Assembly (NCBI RefSeq): GCF_019237615.1
Contig: NZ_JAFAGT010000029.1
Span: 1 to 43,156 of the forward strand
Length of the DNA: 43,156 nucleotides
Source of the DNA: Roseateles sp.
GTDB lineage: Bacteria > Pseudomonadota > Gammaproteobacteria > Burkholderiales > Burkholderiaceae_C
Reading direction: 5' to 3'
The notes beneath the pieces were generated by a model. That model saw only the letters and a program-made list of their open reading frames with translations, was not told the DNA's origin and searched no databases. Within the stretch, counting starts at the first letter, position 1. Every line of letters starts with the position of its first letter. Of this stretch, positions 29,338 to 32,158 are shown in pieces. Position numbers and translations under genes: made by a program.

Positions 29338-29413
<76 letters not shown>

Positions 29414-29464
29414 AGAATCCTTAGGGGTTTTTGAGTGGCGCGCAGTTCAAGTCGCGAAGGTTTC

Positions 29465-29540
29465 GTCCCCTTCGTCTAGAGGCCTAGGACACCACCCTTT
29501 CACGGTGATTACAGGGGTTCGAATCCCCTAGGGGACGCCA
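29465..29540 (+). tRNA. tRNA-Glu (anticodon TTC), copy 1
   Basis: A 76-base tRNA with encoded CCA: 5' GTCCCCTTCGTCTAGAGG, anticodon loop CTTTCAC (anticodon TTC), T arm AGGGGTTCGAATCCCCT, 3' GGGGACGCCA. Confidence 0.97.
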
Positions 29541-29592
29541 AGTTTGATGAGCTTGGATATTGTCGAAAGACGGTATTAAAATCATCCCACGC

Positions 29593-29669
29593 GGAGTGGT
29601 AGTTCAGTTGGTTAGAATACCGGCCTGTCACGCCGGGGGTCGCGGGTTCGAGCCCCGTCCACTCCGCCA
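29593..29669 (+). tRNA. tRNA-Asp (anticodon GTC), copy 1
   Basis: A 77-base tRNA with encoded CCA: 5' GGAGTGGTAGTTCAGTTGG, anticodon loop CTGTCAC (GTC), T arm CGCGGGTTCGAGCCCCGT, 3' CACTCCGCCA. Confidence 0.97.
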
Positions 29670-29698
29670 AGGATTCCATCGGGTTCGCCCGATAAATG

Positions 29699-29725
29699 AA
29701 CGGCCAATACGGCCGTTTATTTTTT
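29699..29725 (+). terminator. Terminator-like hairpin between the two tRNA units
   Basis: AACGGCC (29699-29705) pairs with GGCCGTT (29711-29717) around AATAC, followed by TATTTTTT. Only 16 bases separate it from tRNA-Ala copy 2, so copy 2 has no room for its own promoter unless the hairpin is leaky or is an RNA-processing signal. Confidence 0.65.
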
Positions 29726-29741
29726 GCGACCGTCATTTGAC

Positions 29742-29817
<76 letters not shown>

Positions 29818-29865
29818 GATATCCCTTGGGATATTCGGTGGCTTCGCAGTAGTTTTGAAAATTCA

Positions 29866-29941
29866 GTCCCCTTCGTCTAGAGGCCTAGGACACCACCCTT
29901 TCACGGTGATTACAGGGGTTCGAATCCCCTAGGGGACGCCA
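29866..29941 (+). tRNA. tRNA-Glu (anticodon TTC), copy 2
   Basis: Identical by eye to the copy at 29465, with anticodon TTC and encoded CCA. Confidence 0.97.
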
Positions 29942-29993
29942 AGTTTGATGAGCTTGGATATTGTCGAAAGACGGTATCGAATTCATCCCACGC

Positions 29994-30070
29994 GGAGTGG
30001 TAGTTCAGTTGGTTAGAATACCGGCCTGTCACGCCGGGGGTCGCGGGTTCGAGCCCCGTCCACTCCGCCA
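29994..30070 (+). tRNA. tRNA-Asp (anticodon GTC), copy 2
   Basis: Identical by eye to the copy at 29593, with anticodon GTC and encoded CCA. Confidence 0.97.
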
Positions 30071-30567: not shown

Positions 30568-30662
<95 letters not shown>

Positions 30663-30674
30663 TGCAAGCCCGCC

Positions 30675-30706
30675 ATCATAGCGCAATACGAGGCTCATGC
30701 CTGCAA
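30675..30706 (-). promoter_or_regulatory. Possible promoter of tRNA-Ser
   Basis: On the minus strand TATGAT (30675-30680) lies 12 bases before the tRNA 5' end and is a good -10 element. The nearest -35-like hexamer, TTGCAG (30701-30706), is 20 bp away, which is long. It lies across the 3' end of the 131-residue gene. Confidence 0.45.
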
Positions 30707-31090
30707 ATTACGGGTTCGATTTGCGCCGCGCCTGTCCAATGCATCGCGCCAGTCGAGTTGATGGATGACATTGTTGAGGTGCAGCATGCGGCGCGAGCGT
30801 GCCAGCGTATGCCCGTGGCCATCAATCAGCGCGACATTGCAGAGGATGTTCATCGGATCGAACAGCGCGACGACGTCAGGTTGGATCTCGGTCCACTCCC
30901 AGGCGATCTGGATGGGCTCGCCGCCATCCGACGTGGCCCAGACCTCCTGCCCAGAACGCAGCCCAGAGCGTGAATCGTGCACTCTGACACTACTTCCCAC
31001 TTGCCGCAGCTCATGGGTCGCTAATTCGAACTCGTTTACAGTCTTGACGACCGTCTCGCAGGCCATCAGTTGCCAAGCTGCAATCTGCAT
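30695..31090 (-). CDS. 131-residue protein of unknown function, divergent from the LuxR regulator
   Basis: A small soluble protein with no signal peptide or membrane span. The N-terminal half contains QIAAWQLMACETVVKTVNEF. The more hydrophobic C-terminal half (ALFDPMNILCNVALID, then RRMLHLNNVIHQLDWRDALD) suggests a mixed alpha/beta fold. It is too short to be, and does not resemble, a LuxI-type synthase. GAGAGGAG is a strong ribosome site 6 bases before the ATG at 31090. Its predicted promoter carries the same 16-bp dyad and CAAACTGC octamer as that of the 17-codon ORF beyond luxR, so it is probably a direct target of the LuxR protein. Base composition is more A/T-rich than the flanking housekeeping genes. 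Confidence 0.75.
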   Translation of the reverse strand: MQIAAWQLMACETVVKTVNEFELATHELRQVGSSVRVHDSRSGLRSGQEVWATSDGGEPIQIAWEWTEIQPDVVALFDPMNILCNVALIDGHGHTLARSRRMLHLNNVIHQLDWRDALDRRGANRTRNLQA

Positions 31091-31117: not shown

Positions 31118-31164
31118 GCAGTTTGCGTTCACCCGGGCCAGGCTGCTCCTACCAACCCTAGTAG
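31118..31164 (-). promoter_or_regulatory. Predicted LuxR-activated promoter of the 131-residue gene
   Basis: Read on the minus strand: dyad CTACTAGGGTTGGTAG (31164-31149), 23 bp, then CAAACTGC (31125-31118). If CAAACT is the -10 hexamer, the start site is near 31113, the leader is about 23 bases and the dyad is centred near -43.5, the position used by LuxR-type class II activators. The dyad ends 3 bases before the luxR start codon on the other strand. Confidence 0.65.
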
Positions 31165-31167
31165 CGC

Positions 31168-31884
31168 ATGAACCTGCAGCGGTACGAACAAGTCAGTCAA
31201 GCGGAAGATTTCGCGTCCTTCAAGCAAGGGCTGATCGACTTCGCCAATGACCTGGACTTTGGTTTGATTGCAGGAGTTCTGGCCTATGAGCACCGTGGGC
31301 CGGGGGCCAAGACCGAATACGTCACGATCAGCAACACGCCGACTGCTTTCCTGGAAGCGTTCAATGACGCGTCGAACGCCAAGAGGGATCCGGTCCACCA
31401 GCATGTGATGCGGCATTCAACGCCGCTGATCTACGACCAAAGCCTCTACGTCAACGCCGACGCCGGCGATCTATGGGAAATGCAGGCCCCGTTCGGGTAT
31501 AGGGCAGGTCTGGCGGTCAGCGTTCACATGCCCGGCTATCGACGGTTTCTGCTCGGCGTCGACCGCGACAAGGCGCTGCCGAAGGACTCGGTCAAGCTCA
31601 ATCGGATGATTGCCGATCTTCAGCTTCTGGCGGTTCATGCTCAGGACGCGGCAGCGCGGCTGCTGTTGTCGTCCAAGGGCCAGGACAACAAGCCGAAGCT
31701 GTCTGTGCGTCAGCTTGAGATCCTCAAGCTGACGATGGAAGGCAAAAGTGCCTGGGTCGTAGGCAGCATCCTCGGCATCAGCGAGAACACGGTCAATTAC
31801 CACATGAAGCAGCTCTTCAAGGAGCTGGATGTTTCGAACAAGCCTCACGCCGTTTTGAAGGCGATGGAGTTGGGCCTGCTTTGA
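31168..31884 (+). CDS. LuxR-family regulator with autoinducer-binding-type domain (LuxR solo)
   Basis: A 238-residue quorum-sensing-type regulator. The N-terminal ligand domain (about 15-165) has the family landmarks DPV (AKRDPVHQHV) and FGYRAGLAVSVHMPG. The C-terminal HTH_LUXR (about 176-235) is standard: LSVRQLEILKLTMEGKSAWVVGSILGISENTVNYHMKQL. Aligned by eye with TraR/LuxR, the pocket residues W57, Y61 and W85 appear as Phe (AFLEAF), Phe and Tyr (PLIYDQ), while D70, P71 and G113 are kept. That pattern is seen in LuxR solos that bind ligands other than acyl-homoserine lactones. No luxI-like gene is in the window. In-frame TAG codons just upstream fix the ATG at 31168, yet no clear ribosome site precedes it. 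Confidence 0.92.
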   Translation: MNLQRYEQVSQAEDFASFKQGLIDFANDLDFGLIAGVLAYEHRGPGAKTEYVTISNTPTAFLEAFNDASNAKRDPVHQHVMRHSTPLIYDQSLYVNADAGDLWEMQAPFGYRAGLAVSVHMPGYRRFLLGVDRDKALPKDSVKLNRMIADLQLLAVHAQDAAARLLLSSKGQDNKPKLSVRQLEILKLTMEGKSAWVVGSILGISENTVNYHMKQLFKELDVSNKPHAVLKAMELGLL

Positions 31885-31892
31885 ATGCGCCC

Positions 31893-31939
31893 CTACCAGG
31901 GTTTGTAGTTCCCTGCCGAGCGACCCTCCGACAAACTGC
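31893..31939 (+). promoter_or_regulatory. Predicted LuxR-activated promoter of the 17-codon ORF transcript
   Basis: Dyad CTACCAGGGTTTGTAG (31893-31908), 23 bp, then CAAACTGC (31932-31939). Dyad and octamer match those of the divergent 131-residue gene (14/16 and 8/8) at identical spacing. With CAAACT as -10, transcription would start near 31944, leaving a 37-base leader with GGGAG before the ATG at 31981. Confidence 0.65.
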
Positions 31940-31980
31940 GCTCATCTGTGTACGGCCCGATGGCCAGATGGGAGCAAGTT

Positions 31981-32034
31981 ATGTGGACACTGATTGCCGA
32001 ATTGTTGGGTCTGCCTTACGGCGGTGGTAACTAA
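31981..32034 (+). CDS. 17-residue micropeptide downstream of luxR
   Basis: The ORF encodes MWTLIAELLGLPYGGGN and stops at TAA. GGGAG at 31970-31974 sits 6 bases before the ATG, an ideal ribosome site. The peptide is a hydrophobic, helix-prone segment ending in a glycine-rich tail, with one acidic and no basic side chain. There is no signal peptide or obvious exporter or protease neighbour. It is the only ORF on a predicted 215-base transcript that has its own LuxR-type promoter and terminator. It could be a signal precursor, a membrane-active peptide, a leader peptide, or incidental within a small RNA. I do not recognise a family. Confidence 0.5.
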   Translation: MWTLIAELLGLPYGGGN

Positions 32035-32119
32035 GCCTGCAGCGAGACCTTTGACAGGACCCTTAACAGGAAAAGCGACACCTCCATCGCTTTCGTTCGG
32101 CGCCCCCCGAACGTCTTGC

Positions 32120-32158
32120 ACCCGCGACCGCCCTTAGGGCGGCTTCGCGGGTTTTTTT
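32120..32158 (+). terminator. Intrinsic terminator of the luxR-peptide region
   Basis: ACCCGCGA (32120-32127) pairs with TCGCGGGT (32145-32152), with an inner CCGCC/GGCGG stem, followed by TTTTTTT. The direction is plus. It also separates this locus from qmcA, which ends at 32170 on the other strand. Confidence 0.92.

Follow-up and report, generated by a model that had tools for sequence, protein, structure and literature searches.

The LuxR-type regulator encoded in the window, by which we mean the whole 43,156-nt stretch of Roseateles sp. DNA that was analysed, is probably the receptor of a self-contained peptide circuit, whose autoinducer would be a ribosomal peptide encoded in the place of luxI. 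In textbooks, LuxR receptors sense AHLs and peptide autoinducers belong to Gram-positives; comparison of the locus with its relatives suggests peptide-based communication built on LuxR and RsaM, with binding of the peptide as its presumed step. More broadly, we lean towards the reading that there are LuxR-family receptors in the Burkholderiales that use a peptide autoinducer from a dedicated precursor gene at the luxI position, with RsaM as a built-in brake.

An earlier note on this DNA had proposed a three-part module of luxR, a flanking gene and a micropeptide or small RNA. The module holds, and the micropeptide gene is genuine as judged by its orthologous ORFs and low dN/dS. The locus is laid out as follows.

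30695..31090, minus strand: rsaM-type gene, 131 aa, DUF4902/RsaM fold (sub-cut-off PF16245 match, fold match and tryptophans)
31118..31125, minus strand: putative -10 region of the rsaM promoter, CAAACTGC (23-nt spacer from the box)
31149..31164, minus strand: lux-type box of the rsaM promoter, CT-N12-AG dyad, CTACTAGGGTTGGTAG (conserved in orthologues)
31168..31884, plus strand: luxR solo, 238 aa, Autoind_bind and GerE HTH (Pfam)
31893..31908, plus strand: lux-type box of the micropeptide promoter, CTACCAGGGTTTGTAG (conserved in orthologues)
31932..31939, plus strand: putative -10 region of the micropeptide promoter, CAAACTGC (23-nt spacer from the box)
31970-31974, plus strand: Shine-Dalgarno-like GGGAG of the micropeptide gene (from the sequence)
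31981..32034, plus strand: micropeptide gene, 17 codons, MWTLIAELLGLPYGGGN (orthologues, codon-level selection)
32072..32158, plus strand: anti-hemB-like hairpins (CACCUCC loop, C6 loop) and an intrinsic-terminator-like stem with a T run (sub-threshold Rfam match, conservation)

The luxR product matches both PF03472 (E 5.7e-18) and PF00196 (E 3.5e-14) in Pfam and thus has the two domains of LuxR-type receptors. Its closest PDB sequences are RhlR variants, RhlR, SdiA and LasR, and its AlphaFold model (pLDDT 85.7, pTM 0.67) has SdiA, QscR and RhlR as top Foldseek matches. Just left of the luxR locus, a tRNA-Ala/Glu/Asp set is tandemly duplicated (two copies each, window 29338-30070) and is followed by a tRNA-Ser at 30572-30662 on the minus strand.

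The promoters on either side of luxR are sisters, as first noticed in the window: their dyads match at 14/16 positions and their octamers at 8/8, and both spacers are 23 nt long but different in sequence. The dyads follow the CT-N12-AG rule, which we take to be that of a lux box. A comparison across genomes, which the earlier note had recommended, found both dyads in the window and in 14/14 orthologous loci (L001-L014). Over these 15 Roseateles/Pelomonas loci the boxes average 0.976/0.961 in pairwise identity and the spacers 0.63/0.40; on these comparative grounds, chance is ruled out as the origin of the twin boxes, which are conserved while the spacers drift. All downstream promoters (15/15) and 14/15 of the upstream ones have the N23 spacing, L013 having N24 upstream. 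The presumed conservation of the octamer was borne out in part: a -10-like element is present at N23 across the loci, but it is not invariant and varies as [CG]A[ACG]ACT, with G usually the next base (15 loci). On the micropeptide side this element lies at N23 in 15/15 loci; on the rsaM side it reads CA[AC]ACT, at the same position in 14/15 loci and shifted by 1 in L013. If CA[AC]ACT is the -10 hexamer, the spacing would place the centre of the dyads at about -43.5, in agreement with the original estimate.

We derived a box pattern, CTACNARGGTTNGTAG, from these loci and searched 20 genomes of the genus for exact matches, with the reversed pattern as control. All 15/15 genomes with this luxR have exactly two matches, both flanking luxR, and the 5/5 genomes without it have 0; the reversed control gave 1 match over the 20 genomes. 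With two mismatches allowed, the pattern found 10 extra places in the own genome versus 31 for the control, so that at this stringency there is no sign of a larger regulon. The comparison strongly supports a LuxR-controlled promoter pair, each with its private box, that serves rsaM and the micropeptide gene; LuxR would bind the two boxes and switch both genes on.

The 131-residue protein, previously called unknown, was identified as RsaM (DUF4902), a known quorum-sensing brake. PF16245 scores 23.4 bits on the window protein against a cut-off of 25, and 11/15 orthologues match it at E<=0.01. The model of the protein (pLDDT 87.5) matches 4o2h, Burkholderia RsaM, with E 5.2e-5, probability 1.00 and TM 0.63; the two chains of 4o2h were the only significant result of the fold search (the next match, unrelated, has E 0.17), and the fold search alone found them, PDB sequence searches with RsaM giving no match. 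Across 60 rows W51, W66 and W114 are invariant and W64 nearly so, residues that we take to be the tryptophan quartet of the RsaM crystal structure, and the gene adjoins luxR as is usual for the RsaM family. As far as the relevant passages of a 2023 review go, RsaM (pfam16245) is a regulator of AHL quorum sensing that binds neither nucleic acids nor AHLs, and a divergent rsaM-luxR solo pair is topology 'type 6', found in Pelomonas, Thauera, Kinneretia, Albitalea and Xenophilus (PMC10710839). The protein half of the module is exactly this pair, in the same genus, and is already known; the claim of an undescribed system survives for the promoter pair and the peptide. These appear new in the literature searched, where no description of either was found (preprints and most subscription journals lay outside its scope). 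The passages of the review on type 6 mention no box pair, peptide gene or exporter, and the term 'lux box' is absent from its main text (PMC10710839).

The micropeptide ORF has a counterpart in 15/15 orthologous loci, its product ending in G[LF]P[YFIV]xG and one or two further residues. Its crude dN/dS is 0.12 over the last 13 codons of 13 orthologues (the window and L001 were excluded because their C-terminal ends differ, both ending GGGN), and the changes are mostly synonymous; on this measure the gene is under purifying selection at the codon level.

Because a narrow RsaM profile matched just 3/300 genomes in an order-wide search, the own one included, LuxR was taken as the probe in its place. 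At E <= 1e-40 the LuxR profile, made from the proteins of these loci, matched in 104/399 sampled genomes and 40/141 genera of one family. In a class-wide search at 1e-30, matches outside the clade came from 3/369 genomes besides the own one and were rejected as non-members, as they carry a YPxxW-like motif as in canonical LuxRs. Merging of identical copies left 125 non-redundant loci, in which rsaM is divergent in 117, on the same strand in 1 and not recognisable in the stretch examined in 7 (L146, L158 and L160 are without a detected rsaM in that stretch). Good boxes were found downstream of luxR in 109 of 120 loci, upstream in 104 and on both sides in 97, and base-shuffled stretches reached a good-box score in 7 (downstream) and 5 (upstream) of 600 trials. 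Box and micro-ORF start are 82-102 nt apart in the middle 90% of 106 loci. With core motifs that were derived from these same loci, as they also were for the peptide count, an ATG ORF carrying such a motif lies downstream of luxR in 102/124 loci versus 53/2480 dinucleotide shuffles, and it is found in 0/124 loci upstream, on the rsaM side, and in 2/124 on the reverse strand; in several of the 22 misses the precursor extends beyond the 350-nt stretch, starts with GTG or has a different ending. In the peptide table, which has 120 rows after exclusion of L190, L194, L195, L196 and L197, a core-like peptide stands next to luxR in 118/120 loci from 33 genera. Peptides of L113, L136, L139, L166, L174 and L175 were read by eye and entered by hand; L112 has no recognisable micropeptide, and the stretch of L141 stops at a contig end. 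Almost every member belongs to a single bacterial family, so that shared ancestry accounts for part of this conservation. Several copies of the clade luxR occur near one peptide gene in L146 (G382), L158 (G521), L160 (G650), L181 (G408) and L172/L204 (G506), with up to five copies in G408 among the matches listed.

The 87-nt RNA segment behind the micro-ORF, with an anti-Shine-Dalgarno CACCUCC loop and a second hairpin with a C6 loop, offers another candidate product: a LuxR-controlled small RNA, to which the short ORF would be secondary. We regard this as very improbable. The hairpin region is kept in 14/15 orthologous loci, window included, with 90% mean column identity and a terminator-like stem, and it resembles anti-hemB RNA below threshold (RF02837 of Rfam, 29.2 bits on the window segment against a gathering value of 49.5), all of which would fit a functional RNA; but the region has diverged in L013, a scan of 125 loci detected the hairpin motif in 14 (13/15 orthologues, with a variant in L002, and L194 of the same genus) compared with a core-like peptide in 118/120, and codon-level selection acts on the peptide. 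Covariation is slight (2/27 pairs) because most columns are invariant. RF02837 members over threshold occur in 20/20 genus genomes, at least one in each, and those of the own genome among the matches listed in the genome-wide Rfam run are G000:C56:27003-27091 and C9:59262-59347; the window copy is not among them. We also rejected an RNA-only reading modelled on VqmA-VqmR of Vibrio, where a regulator with a LuxR-type HTH activates a neighbouring small RNA: the hairpins are confined to the genus in the loci scanned, RF02837-like RNAs also occur elsewhere in genus genomes and, unlike in Vibrio, the sensor here is Autoind_bind and a conserved peptide is encoded. The choice between micropeptide and small RNA, which the earlier note had left open, leans to the peptide, core-like in 33 genera, rather than to the hairpins, seen in one genus among the loci scanned. 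In the window's orthologue group the transcript may also carry the hairpin RNA as a possible output arm of the circuit. In the parts of one study that concern sRNAs, the anti-hemB transcript ncS04 of B. cenocepacia is listed with biofilm-expressed sRNAs, and sRNA expression in general is called unaltered in AHL-synthase mutants, with the data not shown there (PMC5688073).

In related genera the peptide is often encoded in a longer gene. Precursors of at least 40 residues were found in 73/118 peptide rows from 30 genera (45-79 residues in rows not hand-entered). Most of them have leaders of the double-glycine type (..L.L..V.GG; some GA), and their cores, such as SPKGTW, APKSGW and GPNGGW, are xPKGTW-like overall. 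Two or more core-like motifs are present in 23/120 precursors, with a maximum of five. At the other extreme are the near-bare-core ORFs MICLPRVGW (9 codons; L175, G502) and MQVLLPRNAW (10 codons; L136, G603). Each of these two lies behind a lux-type box, and they are among the shortest candidate genes seen. In many loci the gene after the precursor is HlyD-type adaptor-like by eye and is followed by a C39-peptidase ABC exporter; a domain scan of ten proteins confirmed 6/6 presumed exporters and 2/2 HlyD proteins, the remaining two being unrelated genes. We tallied 80 luxR places and 65 strong C39 places among the matches listed, with L112 excluded from the long precursors. Among the C39 matches listed, the domain lies <=5 kb downstream of luxR in 48/58 long-precursor loci versus 0/21 short-peptide loci (Fisher p 6e-12), and two of the 10/58 long-precursor loci without such an exporter have one at 7.5 and 11.6 kb. 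In a LuxR tree (fasttree) of the 116/124 full-length rows (W 80, shortR 19, shortY 17; 8 rows unclassed), the peptide-class labels cluster, with 4 changes over 116 rows, near-copies included. The bare-core ORFs and the exporter tally suggest that the core, rather than the leader, is the common unit, and that the leader is gained or lost along with the exporter. A leader-peptide/attenuator reading was put aside in view of these exporters and bare-core ORFs and of the tandem cores. By this comparison, the window holds the short version of a more widespread LuxR-RsaM-peptide system, in which an exporter is often included. The precursors of other genera, mostly with GG-type leaders and with HlyD and C39-ABC genes nearby, are like the double-glycine peptides of the colicin V and competence-peptide kind with their C39 ABC exporters; the short form in the window, in contrast, has no leader or adjacent exporter, and control here is by LuxR and RsaM.

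The peptide of the window has no GG leader, its own genome has no C39 match, and its C-terminal core, LPYGGGN, lacks the terminal Trp of cores elsewhere; its secretion therefore stays putative. For this peptide the leading alternative is a role inside the cell, given the missing leader and C39 protein. The Roseateles micropeptide would then be an unexported regulator that sets or ends expression in the cell that made it by binding LuxR or RsaM, which we consider quite unlikely. An exporter lies <=5 kb away in 0/12 tallied short-type places of the Roseateles kind, 8/15 Roseateles genomes, the window's included, are without a C39 match among the matches listed, and RsaM is small, with a mode of action that the passages of the review on it give as not established (PMC10710839). 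However, a C39 protein is present elsewhere in 7/15 Roseateles genomes, exporter genes are present in relatives of the circuit, and other carriers may still release a small unprocessed peptide.

The regulator itself is without a cognate LuxI. The own genome has one weak PF00765 match, G000:C9:33661-33831 (L016:967-1752, minus strand), which was rejected as an autoinducer synthase because it is a TIGR03694 exosortase-associated acyltransferase. Acyltransferases of the TIGR03694 kind pass the PF00765 cut-off and are a trap when LuxI genes are counted. Matches over this cut-off occur in 15/80 circuit-bearing genomes, strong in 7 (best E 5.3e-22 or lower) and weak in 8, and by the listed coordinates none of the strong matches in the 7 genomes has a clade luxR within ~130 kb on its contig.

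We compared the ligand pocket at positions numbered as in TraR (Y53, W57, Y61, W85, D70, P71 and G113), which we take from the alignment. The window LuxR has T57, F61, F65 and Y89 at the positions of Y53, W57, Y61 and W85 and thus lacks the canonical aromatic AHL contacts. Among the clade LuxRs (n=116, the full-length rows used for the tree), the Y53 position is Y in 0/116, the W57 position is W in 6/116 and mostly Y or F, the Y61 position is Y in 14, and the W85 position is W in 74 and Y in 42. Residues of AHL receptors that are kept are D70 (114/116), P71 (116/116) and G113 (116/116). As controls we examined ten LuxI loci, of which L216 has no LuxR match; the LuxRs of the other 9 are canonical at all seven positions in 9/9 cases (six of the same genomes), and none of these 9 has such a micro-ORF within 350 nt downstream. 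The locus therefore resembles the LuxI/LuxR/RsaM AHL systems (Burkholderia CepI/CepR/RsaM, Pseudomonas fuscovaginae) in its two-domain LuxR, lux box, rsaM beside luxR and autoregulatory layout, and differs from them in that there is no linked luxI, a micropeptide gene is present instead and AHL-contact residues are replaced. The retained D70, P71 and G113 and the usually aromatic W57 position weaken the peptide-ligand reading, as an AHL-like or plant ligand also fits.

These retained residues also favour a reading in which the peptide is an output: LuxR would sense a small molecule of exogenous origin, such as an AHL or a plant compound, and induce RsaM together with a secreted bacteriocin-like or host-directed peptide. 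We consider this rather unlikely. C39-ABC/HlyD exporters carry bacteriocins too, one exporter and one HlyD protein have NCBIfam bacteriocin/type I secretion models among the matches listed, all sub-cut-off, and exogenous compounds are often sensed by LuxR solos, according to part of a review. Set against this are the core-like motifs of ~6 residues, with ORFs of 9-10 residues in two loci, and the presence of each box, at exact match, on at most two promoters per genus genome, so that peptide, regulator and RsaM form a closed loop. The LuxR solo PipR has been reported to depend on a peptide transporter and to answer to a tripeptide, at relatively high concentration (PMC4981722), and PipR/OryR-type solos are similar to the regulator here in that a LuxR-type protein is proposed to sense a peptide-like signal. 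PipR differs in standing by peptidase and peptide-transporter genes and in responding to a plant signal, with no self-encoded peptide. The precedent is only partial, since a later review, in its passage on ligands, gives that of PipR as an ethanolamine derivative.

In the circuit that we favour, the micropeptide or its C-terminal core (LPYGGGN here) would be the autoinducer sensed in the altered LuxR pocket, giving positive feedback, and RsaM would damp the circuit as its family does in AHL systems. In most other genera seen, gene order and domains suggest that the core is cut from a longer precursor and exported by the nearby C39-ABC/HlyD proteins. Roseateles has neither the leader nor the adjacent exporter and keeps a short ORF, so that the peptide might work within the cell or exit another way. 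The RRNPP systems (Rgg/SHP, ComR/ComS, PlcR/PapR) also have a tiny ORF by a cytoplasmic regulator that activates it, and a short C-terminal core. The window locus shares the tiny ORF adjoining its regulator and the short core, whereas its receptor is Autoind_bind plus GerE and not TPR/RRNPP, its host is Gram-negative and its promoters have lux boxes. If the peptides are ligands, Gram-positive-style peptide signals and LuxR sensing would be joined, a large set of 'orphan' LuxRs would gain ligands, the company that RsaM keeps with LuxRs without LuxI would be explained, and genetically encodable signal-receptor pairs would be available for Gram-negative engineering.

The same genome holds a second rsaM-luxR-micropeptide cassette, found through a LuxR paralogue with 46% identity (G000:C18, L059:4689-5922). 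It has a divergent rsaM, its own boxes, CTGGCAGACTTGGCAG and CTGGCAGACTTGCTAG, and its own micropeptide, MQLIDLICEILGVPRFGG, with a crude dN/dS of 0.22 (18 rows). The pattern of the second boxes, CTRGMAGACTTGNYAG, has 30 exact matches in the 20 genus genomes, all of them flanking the second luxR; 12 genomes have two, 6 have one and 2 have none, and the control gave 1. The private boxes of both LuxRs suggest that box type, peptide type and LuxR clade travel together as cassettes and, from their sequences, the two cassettes in one cell look like insulated channels. If LuxRs of the clade do use such peptides as autoinducers, many of its 'solos' would no longer count as solos, and a genome would hold one or several private, orthogonal peptide channels. 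The second cassette is followed by a 122-codon ORF (L059:4142-4510, minus strand), whose C-terminal half resembles, by eye, an RNA polymerase alpha-CTD/helix-hairpin-helix.
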